64,000 nucleotides of DNA from Duganella sp. (GTDB lineage Bacteria > Pseudomonadota > Gammaproteobacteria > Burkholderiales > Burkholderiaceae_D), in assembly GCA_026225475.1 (NCBI GenBank), contig JAMFSU010000053.1:62001-126000 (forward strand), written 5' to 3'. How positions within the stretch are numbered: position 1 is the first letter of the stretch; every line of letters starts with the position of its first letter. This document shows positions 44,157 through 52,335 of the stretch, piece after piece. The notes below the pieces were generated by a model. The model ran no database searches, was not told the origin of the DNA, and saw only the letters and a list, made by a program, of their open reading frames with translations. Position numbers and translations under genes: made by a program.

Positions 44157-45815
44157 TTAGTCCTTGGCGTAGATATCGTTGTCCTTGGTTTCCTTGACGA
44201 ACAGCGCGCCGACCACAACGGTGATCAGGGCGATGATGATCGGATACCACAGGCCATAGTAGATATCACCCTTGAATGCCACCAATGCAAACGAGGTGGT
44301 GGGCAACAGGCCGCCGAACCAGCCATTGCCGATGTGGTAAGGCATCGACATCGAGGTGTAGCGGATACGGGTAGGGAACATTTCCACCAGCGCTGCCGCA
44401 ATCGGGCCATACACCATGGTCACGTACAGCACCAGGATGAACAACAGCAGCAACACCATCGGTTTGTTCATTTGATCCGGATCGGCCTTGCTCGGATAAC
44501 CGGCCAGTTTGATATCGTCAGCCAGTGCCTTGGAGAACGCCTTGTCCTTGGCTGCAGCATCTTCCTTGGACAAACCAGCGGCGTCGTAGGAAGCGATGGT
44601 ATTGTCGCCAATCTTGACGGTTGCCACCGAACCAGGTGCTCCAACCACGTTTTGGTAGTTCACCGAGGCAGCTGACAGCTTGGCCTTGGCGATGTCGCAC
44701 GAAGACGTGAACTTCTTGGTGCCGGTCGGGTTGAACTGGAATTGGCACGTGGCAGGATCAGCAGTGACGATCACCGGCGATTTTTGCTGTGCCATTTCCA
44801 GTGCTGGATTGGCGTAATGCGTCAGGCCCTGGAATATCGGGAAGTAGGTCAGCGCGGCGATCAGGCAACCACCGAGGATGATTGGCTTGCGGCCGATCTT
44901 GTCGGACAGCGAACCAAACACGATGAAAAACGGCGTCGCCAGCAGCAGTGCCAACGCGATCAGGATATTGGCCAACGGACCATCGACCTTGAGCGATTGG
45001 GTCAGGAAGAACAGGGCGTAAAACTGCCCGGTGTACCAGACCACGGCTTGACCTGCAGTCAGACCGACCAGCGCCAGAATCACCATTTTGAGGTTTTTCC
45101 ATTGACCGAAAGCTTCAGTCAGCGGTGCTTTCGATACCTTGCCTTCGGATTTCATCTTCAGGAACGCTGGCGACTCATTCATCGACAGACGGATCCAGAC
45201 AGAAACCGCTAATAACAGGATCGACACCAGGAAGGGAATGCGCCATCCCCAGTCGGCAAACGCTGCTTCGCCGATCGCCGTACGGACGCCCAGAATGACC
45301 AGCAGCGACAGGAACAGACCCAGTGTGGCAGTGGTCTGGATCCAGGCCGTGAAGGCGCCGCGACGGTCGTCCGGTGCATGTTCGGCTACATAGGTGGCAG
45401 CGCCACCGTATTCGCCACCCAATGCCAGGCCTTGCAGGATGCGCAGCGAGATCAGGATGATTGGTGCGGTGATGCCGATCGAATTGTAGTTCGGCAAAAT
45501 CCCCACGATGAAGGTGGATGCCCCCATGATCAGGATGGTCATCAGGAAGGTGTATTTGCGGCCGATCATGTCACCCAGGCGGCCGAACACCAACGCGCCG
45601 AACGGGCGCACGATGAAGCCGGCAGCAAACGCCAGCAGTGCGAAAATGAAGCCGGTATTGGGGTCGGTGCCGGTAAAGAATTGCTTGGCGATGATCGCCG
45701 CCAGCGAGCCGTACAGATAAAAGTCGTACCACTCGAATACGGTACCGAGTGAAGACGCAAAGATAACCTTGCGTTCTTCAGGCGTAATACTGCGCCCAGT
45801 GGATGCTGTCGCCAT
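44157..45815 (-). CDS. MHS-family MFS transporter with large extracytoplasmic insert
   Basis: The 552-residue protein is a metabolite:H+ symporter-type MFS carrier (similar to ProP, ShiA, CitA classes). Family motifs: SLGTVFEWYDFYLYG at the start, FVRPFGALVFGRLGDMIGRKYTF, LQGLALGGEYGGAATYVAEHAP, and FGSLSDKIGRKP. Between the ninth and tenth helices (about residues 345-460) there is an extra segment of about 115 residues with two cysteines (TCQFQF and SSCDIAK), which by topology should face the periplasm; normal MHS proteins have a short loop there. The substrate is unknown. A direct repeat lies upstream and a strong terminator downstream. Confidence 0.88.
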   Translation of the reverse strand: MATASTGRSITPEERKVIFASSLGTVFEWYDFYLYGSLAAIIAKQFFTGTDPNTGFIFALLAFAAGFIVRPFGALVFGRLGDMIGRKYTFLMTILIMGASTFIVGILPNYNSIGITAPIILISLRILQGLALGGEYGGAATYVAEHAPDDRRGAFTAWIQTTATLGLFLSLLVILGVRTAIGEAAFADWGWRIPFLVSILLLAVSVWIRLSMNESPAFLKMKSEGKVSKAPLTEAFGQWKNLKMVILALVGLTAGQAVVWYTGQFYALFFLTQSLKVDGPLANILIALALLLATPFFIVFGSLSDKIGRKPIILGGCLIAALTYFPIFQGLTHYANPALEMAQQKSPVIVTADPATCQFQFNPTGTKKFTSSCDIAKAKLSAASVNYQNVVGAPGSVATVKIGDNTIASYDAAGLSKEDAAAKDKAFSKALADDIKLAGYPSKADPDQMNKPMVLLLLFILVLYVTMVYGPIAAALVEMFPTRIRYTSMSMPYHIGNGWFGGLLPTTSFALVAFKGDIYYGLWYPIIIALITVVVGALFVKETKDNDIYAKD

Positions 45816-48281: not shown

Positions 48282-49604
48282 ATGGCCAAGAAGCCACCAC
48301 TATACAAATCCCTATACTTCCAGGTCCTGACGGCGATTGTCATCGGCGTGCTGCTGGGTCATTTCTATCCGCATACCGGCGAGATGATGAAGCCGCTTGG
48401 TGACGGTTTTATCAAGTTGATCAAGATGATCATCGCACCGGTGATTTTCTGTACCGTCGTGCTCGGTATCGCTGGCATGGAAGATATGAAGAAGGTCGGC
48501 AAAACCGGTGGCCTGGCCTTGCTGTACTTTGAAGTCGTCAGTACCTTGGCGCTGGTGGTTGGCCTGGTGCTGGTCAATGTACTCAAGCCAGGTGCCGGTA
48601 TGAACGTCGATGTATCGACGATTGATACCAAGAGCATCACGGCCTTCACCAATCCCGAAAAGATGGGCGGGATTGTTGACTACATCATGAACATCATCCC
48701 GAACAGCTTGTTTGATGCCTTCGCCAAGGGCGATGTGTTGCAAGTGTTGCTGATTTCGGTACTGTTCGGTTTTGCACTACACAAGTTCGGTGGTCGCGGC
48801 ACGCTGGTGTTTGACTTCATCGAAAAAATTTCGCATGTGCTGTTCTCGGTGGTCGGTACCATCATGAAGGTCGCGCCTATTGGTGCCTTCGGTGCGATGG
48901 CATTCACCATCGGTAAATACGGTGTCGGCTCGCTGCTGTCGCTGGGCAAGCTGATGGGCACGTTTTACCTGACCTGCCTGATCTTTGTATTCGTCATTCT
49001 GGGCATCATTACCCGTCTGCATGGCTTCAGCATCTGGAAGTTCGTCAAGTACATCAAGGAAGAATTGCTGATCGTGCTGGGTACGTCGTCGTCGGAATCG
49101 GTATTGCCACGCATGCTGGTGAAGATGGAAAACCTCGGCGCCAAAAAGACGGTGGTCGGTCTGGTGATTCCAACGGGTTACTCGTTCAACCTGGACGGTA
49201 CGGCGATTTATCTGACCATGGCGGCTGTGTTCATTGCGCAGGCGACCAATACGCCGATGACGCTGGTGCAGGAACTGACACTGCTGGCGGTGTTGTTGCT
49301 GACGTCCAAGGGCGCGGCAGGGATCACAGGTAGCGGCTTTATCGTGCTGGCGGCAACCTTGTCGGCAGTGGGACATGTCCCGGTTGCCGGTTTGGCGTTG
49401 ATTCTCGGTATTGATCGTTTCATGTCGGAGGCGCGCGCCTTGACCAATACTGTGGGTAACGGTGTTGCTACCCTGATTGTGGCCAAGTGGAGCGGTGAGC
49501 TCGACGAGAAGCGCTTGCATGCCGAACTCAACAATGAGACCTCGGAAGCGGCTAACACACCGGAAAAGGTGCTCGATCGCACTGAGGCCAAGCTGCATTT
49601 GTAA
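48282..49604 (+). CDS. dctA: C4-dicarboxylate transporter DctA
   Basis: DctA imports succinate, fumarate and malate with protons or sodium. The 440-residue DAACS-family protein shows [46 protein letters not shown], the hairpin sequence [19 protein letters not shown], and [25 protein letters not shown], with [24 protein letters not shown] at the end. The ATG has GGAGAATCG upstream. A strong terminator follows. A sigma-54 DctD-type promoter was looked for and not seen. Confidence 0.95.
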
Positions 49605-49651: not shown

Positions 49652-49695
49652 AAAAACGGCGACAGGATGAAAGTCCTGTCGCCGTTTTTCTATTG
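49652..49695 (+). terminator. Intrinsic terminator of dctA
   Basis: A 16-base perfect stem (49652-49667 and 49674-49689) with a six-base loop TGAAAG and T-rich end. The centre, CAGGATGAAAGTCCTG at 49663-49678, is identical to the centre of the MFS terminator at 44096-44111 when each is read in the direction of its own gene. Confidence 0.92.
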
Positions 49696-49766
49696 TCTGA
49701 TCATCAATTGTAGGGAGACACTGCAACAAAACAAAGCCTTGTCAAAAAAGCAAATCCCCAAAAGCA

Positions 49767-49801
49767 AAGACCCATAACGATAATCTGGCGTTATGGGTCT
49801 T
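49767..49801. repeat. 13-base perfect hairpin of unknown role
   Basis: AAGACCCATAACG (49767-49779) and CGTTATGGGTCTT (49789-49801) pair perfectly around a nine-base loop. There is no T run on the plus strand; on the minus strand TTTGCTTTT follows, so it may be a weak terminator for a minus-strand RNA. Confidence 0.55.
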
Positions 49802-49920
49802 GGTCTCCTCACAGCCTCTTAAGGACTGGATCTATTTGATGCTATTGTGTTCGCTTTATTTCCAGAAGTCATTCTGCGGTGCAGCATGAAAATAAGGGCG
49901 GAAATGGGGTGGAAAAGACA

Positions 49921-49954
49921 TAAAAAAAGCCCGCAACCTTGCGGTTGCGGGCTT
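49921..49954 (-). terminator. Minus-strand intrinsic terminator
   Basis: A 12-base perfect stem AAGCCCGCAACC (49927-49938) and GGTTGCGGGCTT (49943-49954) with a four-base loop is followed on the minus strand by seven Ts in all. It ends the NRDE transcript or a small RNA. Confidence 0.92.
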
Positions 49955-50040
49955 AAATCCAATTCTTTAAGGAGGAAATTGGAGGAGACAGGTGTAACTT
50001 TAATGCTCTGCACCAAATTCCACTACTTTATTTTGCAAAT
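49921..50040 (-). ncRNA. Candidate small RNA with anti-Shine-Dalgarno loop
   Basis: On the minus strand this region reads CTCCTCC (49987 to 49981), then a seven-base stem TCCAATT/AATTGGA (49983-49977 and 49964-49958) with loop TCCTCCTTAAAG, then a strong intrinsic terminator. CU-rich loops that bind ribosome sites followed by a terminator are known from several proteobacterial small RNA families. The 5' end and promoter are not clear (TATA-rich sequence at 50070-50095), so the given start is arbitrary; the RNA might instead be cut from the NRDE mRNA 3' end. Confidence 0.35.
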
Positions 50041-50112
50041 ATCAGATATATGTTTTGTTAATGTCTCGTCTTTATATATAGTTAAATTGATATCAATACG
50101 GCCATGCTGGAA

Positions 50113-50934
50113 TCAGCTTGGACTTTCAGCACCGGGGTTGATCTTCATTTTGCAGGGCGCGCGCTTTTGCTGCGGTTCGGTCGTTGGCGCAGCCTGGCAT
50201 GAAGTGAAGGGGTCCGAGACTTGTTCCGACAAGACCGGTTCGCCGATGATGGGAATGCGCACGACGGTGGAAGCGCGCGTGCCATAGTCGGGAGAACAGA
50301 TGAAAATCGACGATAGAATGCGTTCCCATTCCAGGCTAACGCCGGTACTAGGAAGGCGGCAATCATTGGCGCGCGTGCTATCGCTGAGTAGCTCGAAGAA
50401 GGTTTCTTCCGGTGCTCCCTGGCACAATAAGCTGGCAAACTGCGCCTTGGCGCGCGTCACCTTGGGCCAGGGGGTATCGAGCAAGGCATTCGACAAACCG
50501 TAGACGCCATAGTCGAGCGGCTTGCCATTGCGCGGATCGTCGTTGCCGCGATTGGAATACCAGAGTAGATTGTCGCGATCGCCGACGATCAGGTTGAAGC
50601 CATTGTATTGGTCCGCAGTGGGGCGGATTTCTTCAATATATTGCTCAGGCGTCATCTCGCCTGCCAGATAATTCGACACCAGTTTGCCGCGCGTGGGTGC
50701 GCCAGGATTCTTCTCGGCGGGCGCACGCACATTGGTCAGTGCCGCAAAGCGGCCACTACGGGTTACGCCAAGCCAAGTACCACCGGCTTGCAGGTCACGA
50801 CCGGCAAAGATGTCCGGGCGGTCTTCCCACCAGCCGGCGGCGCTGGCCGGACGTTGATAGAACTCGTCGCGGTTGGCGGCAGCGATCAGCGGCATGCCAG
50901 GAATGACTTTCCACGCAAAAATGATCAGGCACAT
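50113..50934 (-). CDS. NRDE (TANGO2-like) family protein
   Basis: This 273-residue protein begins MCLIIFAWKVIPGMPLIAAANRDEFYQRP, with the family's Asn-Arg-Asp-Glu motif and the N-terminal Cys that may be the nucleophile after Met removal. Further hallmarks: DLQAGGTWLGVTRSGRFAALTNVR, LSNALLDTPWPKV, and GTRASTVVRI near the end. Human TANGO2 and bacterial homologues have been tied to heme or lipid metabolism, but the reaction is not settled. It overlaps the DUF4936 gene by ten bases. The tail beyond TRASTVV is Cys-, Pro- and Gln-rich. Confidence 0.85.
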   Translation of the reverse strand: MCLIIFAWKVIPGMPLIAAANRDEFYQRPASAAGWWEDRPDIFAGRDLQAGGTWLGVTRSGRFAALTNVRAPAEKNPGAPTRGKLVSNYLAGEMTPEQYIEEIRPTADQYNGFNLIVGDRDNLLWYSNRGNDDPRNGKPLDYGVYGLSNALLDTPWPKVTRAKAQFASLLCQGAPEETFFELLSDSTRANDCRLPSTGVSLEWERILSSIFICSPDYGTRASTVVRIPIIGEPVLSEQVSDPFTSCQAAPTTEPQQKRAPCKMKINPGAESPS

Positions 50935-51258: not shown

Positions 51259-52335
51259 TCATTGCGGCTCTGCCAGTTCATACGGCAGCGTCAGTAATTT
51301 CAAGGCCGGACCAGCGACGCTGCCGACATGGATGCTGCCATTGTCGGCTGCGGCCAACTTGATTTCGACCAGGCAAGCCGAGTTGCCGTCATTGGCTACT
51401 TCGGCATTGACCACCATGCCACATGGCTGGCCGGGATCTTCGCTGGAAAAGACTTCATTGCCAGCCGTCACATCGATGCCGTCGACCAAGGCCAACACGC
51501 TACGGCGCTTGAGTTTGCCCAGATACTGGCTGCGCGCAACGATTTCCTGACCTGGATAGCAACCCTTTTTGAAATTGACGCCGCCGATCAGTTCGAAATT
51601 GATCATTTGCGGCACAAATTGCTCCTGCGTTGGCTTGGTGATGCTGGGCACGCCGGCATATATATCGCTCAAACGCCAGACCTGGGTCGCCGCCGGTGTC
51701 AATTTTTGGGTCAGCAGCGGCCAAGCGACGATCGCTTGCTCGACCGTAGTGATCCATTGATAACGCGGTGCCTGGCGGCTGTCGGCCAGACGGATCAACG
51801 TGCCATGTTCATTGTCGAGCTTGGCATAGGCATGTGCGGGCATCACTGGAAACCATTGCTGCAAGACCTCGGTCGCTTTGCTGCCAGCCAGGCCGAGCGC
51901 CACACGCTGCTCGCTTTGATCGACCAGTTTGACCTTGGCGCGCAGCACAAACATCTGCAAGCGCTTCTGGATCGTCGTCTGCAATGGGCGTGGCAATTGC
52001 AGCATGATTTGCTGGCTGTCTTTCCAAAGTAAAAAAGTCGCCAGCAGACGGCCTTTCGGTGTGCAATAGCCCGCCAGGCGCGCGCTGCCGAGGTCGAGTT
52101 TTTCGACATCGTTGGTGATCTGGTTGTGCAGGAAGCTGACGGCATCGTCGCCGCTGAGCGAAATCAGCCCGAGATCGGTCAGCGGCGCGACGAAATGCTC
52201 AGGCACAGCCGCGCCGGCAACTGCACCAAAGCCGCTTGCTTCAGCGCCGTGCAGACTGTCGTCGCTGGCGAAAACAGCGCCTTGTTGGGCCAGGAATGCC
52301 TGCCAGGAAGTGGCGGCGGAAGTCGTTTCAGTCAT
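51259..52335 (-). CDS. ygfZ: Folate-binding protein YgfZ
   Basis: YgfZ (IBA57-like) uses tetrahydrofolate and supports repair or maturation of iron-sulfur proteins such as the radical-SAM enzyme MiaB. The 358-residue GcvT-like protein has FLHNQITNDVEKL near residue 70 and the diagnostic KGCYPGQEIVARSQYLGKLKRR motif with its conserved Cys near residue 260. It is divergent from mltG across 98 bases, as in many proteobacteria. DUF4936 follows after 46 bases. Confidence 0.94.
   Translation of the reverse strand: MTETTSAATSWQAFLAQQGAVFASDDSLHGAEASGFGAVAGAAVPEHFVAPLTDLGLISLSGDDAVSFLHNQITNDVEKLDLGSARLAGYCTPKGRLLATFLLWKDSQQIMLQLPRPLQTTIQKRLQMFVLRAKVKLVDQSEQRVALGLAGSKATEVLQQWFPVMPAHAYAKLDNEHGTLIRLADSRQAPRYQWITTVEQAIVAWPLLTQKLTPAATQVWRLSDIYAGVPSITKPTQEQFVPQMINFELIGGVNFKKGCYPGQEIVARSQYLGKLKRRSVLALVDGIDVTAGNEVFSSEDPGQPCGMVVNAEVANDGNSACLVEIKLAAADNGSIHVGSVAGPALKLLTLPYELAEPQ

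Follow-up and report, generated by a model that had tools for sequence, protein, structure and literature searches.

A double-hairpin small RNA of family RF02278 behind an NRDE gene, with a candidate sponge RNA beside it

What is encoded behind the NRDE/TANGO2-type gene of this contig, on whose strand two pyrimidine motifs stand just before a strong terminator? In the window, by which we mean the whole 64-kb stretch of DNA analysed, the first-pass annotation had taken this place for a possible small RNA of the kind that blocks ribosome-binding sites (RBSs), and had left undecided whether it is an RNA of its own or a product cut from the 3' end of the NRDE mRNA. According to our analysis, the stretch is very probably the gene of an RF02278 double-hairpin small RNA (sRNA) that has its own promoter and acts at RBSs, and a second conserved block beside it raises the further question of a sponge for this RNA (Table 1).

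Table 1. Features of the locus and their coordinates in the window
Feature	Position	Strand	Basis
sRNA, RF02278 (70 nt; predicted 5' end about 49990)	49921-49990	-	Rfam match and fold
Site 1 of the sRNA, CUCCUCC, 5' end mostly unpaired	49981-49987	-	fold and pattern search; invariant in 29 NRDE-linked copies
Site 2 of the sRNA, UCCUCC, loop of hairpin 1	49971-49976	-	fold and pattern search
Hairpin 1 of the sRNA	49958-49983	-	fold; compensatory changes in 61 family sequences
Intrinsic terminator of the sRNA, 12 pairs, then T run	49927-49954	-	terminator scan and fold
Putative -10 of the sRNA promoter, TAAAGT	49997-50002	-	conserved column block; position by eye from alignments
Upstream box of the sRNA promoter, TATCTGATAT-N5-AAATAAAG	50026-50048	-	conserved at -58
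NRDE/TANGO2-type gene, upstream of the sRNA	50113-50934	-	Pfam PF05742, E 1.2e-67
Candidate sponge RNA (about 80 nt, predicted ends)	49758-49837	-	conserved in 9 distinct genomes; covariance model R2
GAGGAGAC of the candidate sponge, complementary to Site 1 (GUCUCCUC)	49803-49810	-	invariant in 9 of 9
Terminator hairpin of the candidate sponge, then T-rich tail	49769-49799	-	conserved
Putative -10 of the candidate sponge, CACAAT	49844-49849	-	architecture kept in 28 of 29 elements
Putative -35 of the candidate sponge, ATGACT, 17 nt from -10	49867-49872	-	conserved
TGCTGCACCGCAG in the candidate sponge promoter, PhbF-site-like and PhaR-site-like	49874-49886	-	motif likeness
MFS/sugar-transporter-type gene, RBS AGGAGACA (AGGAGACA-AGC-ATG), predicted sRNA target	44157-45815	-	

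Membership, fold and distribution of the sRNA

The Rfam search matched 49990-49921 of the minus strand to the complete RF02278 model (positions 1-64 of 64) at 57.2 bits against a cut-off of 50, with an E-value of 7.2e-9 (64 kb, 4227 families), and this is the only match of gathering level in the 64-kb window. Against RF00519 (suhB/mmgR, alphaR8) the same RNA scored 25.0 bits, below the gathering score of 41, and against RF02877 (NmsRb) 29.8 bits, below 52. Both pyrimidine motifs, CTCCTCC and TCCTCC, lie on the minus strand exactly as had been claimed, and CTCCTCCAATTTCCTCC at 49971-49987 of that strand gives one match with at most three mismatches, where shuffling expects a mean of 0.16. The first motif is correctly placed, but its last three bases (TCC) are already inside the stem; the second lies in the hairpin loop, as the fold bears out. 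That hairpin (TCCAATT/AATTGGA) is real, but its size had been put at seven bases, and in the RNA fold it has eight pairs (seven Watson-Crick and one G-U) around a 10-nt loop containing CCUCC. The strong terminator described after the motifs is found 3' of hairpin 1 as a 12-pair hairpin followed by a U tract. The 70-nt sRNA folds at -30.0 kcal/mol, compared with -12.85 +/- 2.67 in 200 dinucleotide shuffles, none of which was as good (z -6.4). The RNA shows the traits expected of an RF02278 member, namely the double hairpin, the anti-Shine-Dalgarno (anti-SD) sites and the terminator, in a betaproteobacterial host that holds several copies. That no gene lies here likewise stands: the overlapping frames in the list of open reading frames are all short and have no other support.

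Across 61 distinct family sequences, 92.1% of the cells of hairpin 1 are paired, four of the seven pairs tested show changes on both sides, and the covariation score was reached by none of 500 shuffles and was lower in all slides by 1-3 columns; the 61 rows are mutually related, and the covariation is therefore to be read as support and not as proof. One pair fails in 24 sequences, where a second subclass, with the core TGTCTCCTCCAC, is shifted in register. At the level of sequence, then, the membership in RF02278, the two hairpins and the compensatory changes in hairpin 1 are established. This family has also been published as the double-hairpin RNAs (NcS27/bdhR1) and as S17, which act at RBSs, and the sRNA of the window is a new copy of an already known family; the anti-SD design proposed for it is borne out by the match, and by published members that, in the available text of PMC5688073 and PMC11722255, act at RBSs.

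The own genome has eight RF02278 matches at E <=0.001, three of them above the cut-off. Matches were found in 50 of 61 relatives (43 above the cut-off). A sample of 85 genomes from the order gave 57 with a match, 33 of them above the cut-off, and a sample of 229 from the class gave 67, of which only three pass it, all three from the order; none was found in 14 control genomes. Two of the copies of the own genome, L004 and L005 on contig 138, lie 642 nt apart on one strand, with cores that differ in the first base only, and resemble as a tandem pair the sibling sRNAs of Neisseria. Another locus, L208 (G027), likewise holds two sRNAs of RF02278 type in tandem, about 215 nt apart, each with the upstream box of Table 1.

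Kimelman 2012, as later papers cite it, is the founding paper on the toxicity of the family. Growth inhibition in Escherichia coli upon expression is reported for RF02278 in the accessible part of PMC4603805, and S17 is described as non-toxic to exponential E. coli (PMC11722255, in part), so the word "toxic" in the family name may mislead. Burkholderia cenocepacia grows more slowly when ncS27 is overexpressed and faster when the CU region of this RNA is silenced, as the available text of PMC5688073 has it; NcS27 affects genes of amino-acid and carbohydrate use, according to passages of a review (PMC10987360). Bordetella pertussis without S17 has 92 genes up, of which 70 match S17 at or near the RBS, many of them for transporters (PMC11722255, the part available), and in Herbaspirillum seropedicae four family members are expressed, with a function given as not known in the text accessible of PMC7011215.

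Of known systems, those nearest to the window sRNA are the following. The B. cenocepacia RNAs ncS03/05/27/62 (NcS27/bdhR1) have, as here, two hairpins and CU-rich unpaired stretches (PMC5688073, in part), Hsnc059/063/086/107 of H. seropedicae are of the same double-hairpin kind with such stretches (PMC7011215, in part), and published members share with our locus several copies per genome, the terminator and an upstream motif common to some copies (available parts of both papers); the NRDE-linked place and the promoter box are, by comparison, Herbaspirillum features of the present analysis, and the available parts make no mention of the candidate sponge. S17/S17S of B. pertussis has, as here, a 5' region with two RBS-complementary sites, a short form (S17S) of about 67 nt and many transporter targets, and RNase E releases S17S from a long RNA (accessible text of PMC11722255). 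For the window sRNA, by contrast, the conserved box suggests a start at the corresponding base or close to it. Unlike the window sRNA, S17 sits between other genes. The Neisseria siblings NmsR / NgncR_162-163 (RF02877) also have CU-rich unpaired stretches, complementary to RBSs, and control metabolism (PMC5688073, in part), and the alphaR8 RNAs (SisA-D, MmgR; RF00519) are sibling anti-SD sRNAs, one of which lies behind a conserved gene (PMC12559287, in part). The RNA ncS35 was dropped as a possible relative, having no Rfam match according to its authors.

Place behind the NRDE gene and origin of the sRNA

The best 30 places, the own one included, gave NRDE loci from 29 relatives of the genus (L040-L068; L069, L070 and L072 are duplicate records of L043 (G029), L045 and L068). 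An RF02278 match stands directly 3' of the NRDE gene, on the same strand, in 28 of these 29 loci (the exception is L067), about 83-128 nt behind the stop codon. The conservation of the CU loop and the flanking stem in relatives had been proposed as a check on the first reading; both are kept in 28 of the 29 loci, with compensatory stem changes across the family, and Site 1, stem and loop are nearly invariant across the 29 genomes. The place behind NRDE is conserved in most Herbaspirillum genomes examined, and four loci of other genera (L074 Collimonas, L076 Lacisediminimonas, L078 Undibacterium, L079 Glaciimonas) have no such match behind NRDE.

About 70 nt preceding the sRNA are far more conserved than the end of the NRDE gene. 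The -35 of the window sRNA promoter is poor, and its putative -10 reads TATAGT in several copies elsewhere. Every one of the 29 NRDE-linked copies, that of the window among them, has the box TATCTGATAT-N5-AAATAAA at -58 with 0-3 mismatches; with at most four mismatches it stands at -57/-58 in 19 of 57 other copies in one set and in 9 of 19 in another; the remaining copies, mainly of the second subclass, show 5-10 mismatches, mostly scattered. The own genome has the box with at most one mismatch only before the window copy and a copy on contig 9 (C9), and a third match, with three mismatches, is at the level of a reversed-pattern control. This promoter region is conserved and common to other copies. 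Because the box recurs at a fixed distance in copies not beside NRDE, the sRNA most likely has a promoter of its own, and of the two origins left undecided in the first reading that of an RNA in its own right is better supported than cutting from the NRDE mRNA. Copies of B. cenocepacia also have a common upstream motif, in the available text of PMC5688073. A sigma-54 promoter before the sRNA was considered by eye and rejected for its misfitting spacing, and a search for a plasmid origin gave no match.

An sRNA made as the processed 3' end of the NRDE mRNA, with no promoter of its own, would fit the common strand, the 83-128 nt from the stop codon and a scan that found no terminator between this codon and the sRNA, as well as the cutting of Bordetella S17S from a longer RNA by RNase E (PMC11722255, in part); the stronger conservation of the region before the sRNA than of the NRDE end, and the box that recurs before copies away from NRDE, nevertheless make such an origin improbable. 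The stretch does end the NRDE unit, and could be taken for a mere NRDE terminator with a chance pyrimidine motif, yet the RF02278 match, the covariation, the matches dispersed in the genome and the near invariance of Site 1, stem and loop in 29 genomes have already refuted this on sequence grounds, and it deserves next to no credence. An sRNA transcribed from its own promoter is the reading with which we proceed, although some of it may in addition come from processing of the NRDE mRNA, the scan having shown no terminator in between.

A second conserved element downstream

Comparison with the relatives revealed a second conserved block at 49759-49888, which reads, on the minus strand and in this order, a TGC-N3-GCA box, ATGACT, 17 nt, CACAAT, 6 nt and AAATA(A/G)ATCCAGTCC, followed further on by GGCTG-N-GAGGAGAC and then by a terminator hairpin that runs into a T-rich tail. 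Nine of the 29 NRDE-linked loci, from 9 distinct genomes, carry the element (three further rows are duplicate records); the other 20 lack it, and among these L050 has only 287 nt downstream. No Rfam family covers it on its own strand, and in L043 a promoter-finding tool recognised no sigma-70 site under its own rules. A sodium:dicarboxylate symporter family gene (PF00375) lies on the plus strand at 48282-49604, and behind it, at 49652-49689, a 17-pair terminator-like hairpin flanked by A and T runs, which possibly works in both directions.

The 5' half of the element pairs with nt 1-40 of the sRNA at -29.5 to -31.7 kcal/mol in the 9 distinct genomes, and none of 300 dinucleotide shuffles matches this energy in any of the nine rows. 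The complementarity to the site through which the sRNA would act thus exceeds chance, as it should in a sponge. Six of the eight family matches of the own genome (L001-L005, L007) are among the best 0.2% in pairing with the window element, as judged against 3000 random genomic 40-mers; L006 and L008, weak members, are outside it. The sRNA of the 9 genomes with the element has a T after TTGGATT, which would pair with an invariant A, and 19 of the 20 genomes without it have another base there, a difference that coincides with a single clade boundary and amounts to no more than one event. The consensus fold pairs GAGGAGA of the element with its own U-rich tail, and the register of its hairpin differs between the two subclasses of the element.

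R2, a covariance model built from the 9 NRDE-locus elements, locates the element on the same strand behind 20 other sRNA copies, after a gap of about 80-215 nt; its E-values, as with any model of this sort, are only approximate. One is L003, the typA-linked copy of the own genome (30.0 bits, E 2.7e-6), where TypA is recognised by TIGR01394 at 608.9 bits, under the cut-off, as the locus cuts the gene; the others are L038 (34.0 bits, E 1.6e-7), L319 (29.0 bits, E 3.2e-7) and L284-L300, where 17 of 17 loci are positive (21.9-40.6 bits, E <=6.2e-5), a biased rate, these loci having been picked after partial matches in shorter similar pieces. The C-terminus of TypA was seen upstream in seven loci (L151, L152, L154, L156, L158, L160, L163), and other loci hold too little sequence for it. 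R2 found no element at the second-subclass sRNA loci L009-L037 (best 14.1 bits, E 0.21), at the class-2 loci L301-L303, at 19 of the 20 loci of a last batch of seven genomes, in which only L319 was positive, or elsewhere in the 1.34 Mb scanned, about one quarter of the own genome (best 16.1 bits, E 0.25). A hit at L310 (13.1 bits, opposite strand) was excluded from the count, and the opposite strand of the window element itself scores 27.2 bits. At 19 loci the duplex of the recurrent element with its own sRNA has an energy of -26.6 to -30.9 kcal/mol, which is equalled by 0-2 of 300 shuffles. The architecture TGC-N3-GC(A/G), 2 nt, ATGAC(G/T), 17 nt, CA-N-(A/T)-AT is kept in 28 of 29 elements, after the pattern, which fitted 18 of 19 in a first pass, had been loosened by one base.

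From its complementarity to the seed of a sibling sRNA family, its separate encoding and the promoter-like sequence of its own, we lean to the view that the RNA at 49837-49758 is a sponge, like CrfA for SisA-D in Caulobacter. CrfA is a separate RNA, complementary to the common core of SisA-D, that inactivates them, and one CrfA is described (available text of PMC12559287). The candidate sponge, by contrast, has its place immediately after the sRNA gene and is found again beside several sRNA copies. The proposed likeness lies in the way of working. The same RNA may be an independent sRNA whose G/A-rich seed pairs with mRNAs, an interpretation given to CrfA too at first (PMC12559287, in part), and the linker of the element is partly paired in the consensus fold; we consider this unlikely in view of a complementarity to the linked sRNA that spans several segments and beats the shuffles at 28 distinct loci tested (9 + 19), and of homologues found, among the loci searched, only behind copies of the same sRNA family. 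A decayed, inverted copy of an RF02278 gene, with the complementarity as its relic, would account for the weak match of the plus strand to the family model (11.5 bits, E 0.017), but a relic would lose the minus-strand hexamers with their fixed spacing, the terminator and the T-rich tail, all of which are conserved, and we give this origin little weight.

Possible targets, the proposed circuit and its meaning

A scan of duplex energies over 1087 predicted starts showed no enrichment: duplexes of nt 1-26 at or below -14 kcal/mol had a frequency of 0.036 at starts, 0.028 inside genes and 0.056 in shuffled fragments, and the target ranking derived from it was discarded as a noisy list. Motif counts gave a signal. 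GAGGAGACA, the complement of UGUCUCCUC, occurs 2-12 nt before ATG 704 times in 34 genomes of the genus, compared with 223 for GAGGAGCAA and 335 for GAGGAGAAC, and exceeds these two flank permutations in 33 and 34 of the 34 genomes; sites that lie antisense to sRNA genes (2 of 19 in the list for G030) are included in the count. In 1.34 Mb of the own genome, a GGAG at RBS position is followed by ACA 12 times out of 130, compared with 1.2% in gene bodies. The same 1.34 Mb hold 18 AGGAGACA-N-ATG sites, 15 of which open a frame of at least 60 aa, one being the antisense of the window sRNA, two without and 12 with a Pfam match. Uptake functions make up 8 of these 12 (two porins, five solute-binding proteins and one MFS transporter), the other four being a pyruvate dehydrogenase E1, an AMP-binding enzyme, a LysR regulator and a hexapeptide protein; they make up one of seven among the Pfam-matched frames of the permuted-flank controls, for which 9 of 10 frames were scanned, leaving out 51262-51606 of the window.

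Among 85 genomes of the order, the median AGGAGACA ratio is 1.05 with an sRNA above the cut-off (n=33) and 0.64 with none (n=28; Mann-Whitney p 0.0009), and lowest, 0.55, with only weak matches (n=24), phylogeny not being corrected for. The AGGAGACA bias is strongest in G167, which has 105 sites where the permuted flanks have 12 and 52. These counts at RBSs suggest that the targets may be numerous, with an emphasis on uptake systems.

We propose that the sRNA would be transcribed from a promoter of its own, starting at about 49990 and ending at 49921, would be helped by Hfq, by analogy with S17, and would pair GUCUCCUCC (Site 1) and CCUCC (Site 2) with the RBSs of many mRNAs, many of them probably for uptake systems, lowering their translation. 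The neighbouring RNA at 49837-49758 would then, somewhat more probably than otherwise, pair with the 5' domain of the sRNA and free the mRNAs under separate control, and one such sponge could neutralise most copies of the family. We regard as an evenly poised proposal, judged from sequence, that Herbaspirillum carries modules of an anti-SD sRNA of an RF02278 subclass and a same-strand sponge gene about 80-215 nt downstream, recurring at NRDE, typA and other places; each half of such a module would have a conserved promoter region of its own.

Further out stands a possible tie to metabolism. The PhbF site of H. seropedicae is TG[N]TGC[N]3GCAA and the PhaR site of R. sphaeroides CTGC[N]3GCAG (PMC3206438, in the part available); TGCTGCACCGCAG differs from the former by one mismatch and resembles the latter as well. 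TTGC-N3-GCA, which resembles half of the PhbF site, stands 60-76 nt before the core in 28 of 29 second-subclass copies (L009-L037), and a TATATT-like hexamer follows it in many of them. Through the TGC-N3-GCA boxes of the sponge promoters and of these 28 of 29 second-subclass promoters, the circuit might be linked to PhbF, a PHB-responsive repressor, and the AGGAGACA RBS might be the imprint of a very large regulon.

Since the sRNA itself is known, what would be new is the sRNA-sponge module, if it is valid. A limited search of open papers found no description of such a module, none of the paper titles among the matches listed concerned a sponge RNA for Herbaspirillum or Burkholderia, and the word "sponge" is absent from the main texts of PMC7011215 and PMC11722255; this silence is weak evidence of novelty. 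If the neighbour is a sponge, Betaproteobacteria too would restrain anti-SD siblings by a dedicated RNA, as CrfA does for SisA-D. The switching-off of broad repressors would then become testable in a plant-associated genus with existing tools, and so would the reason for the many near-identical copies per genome.
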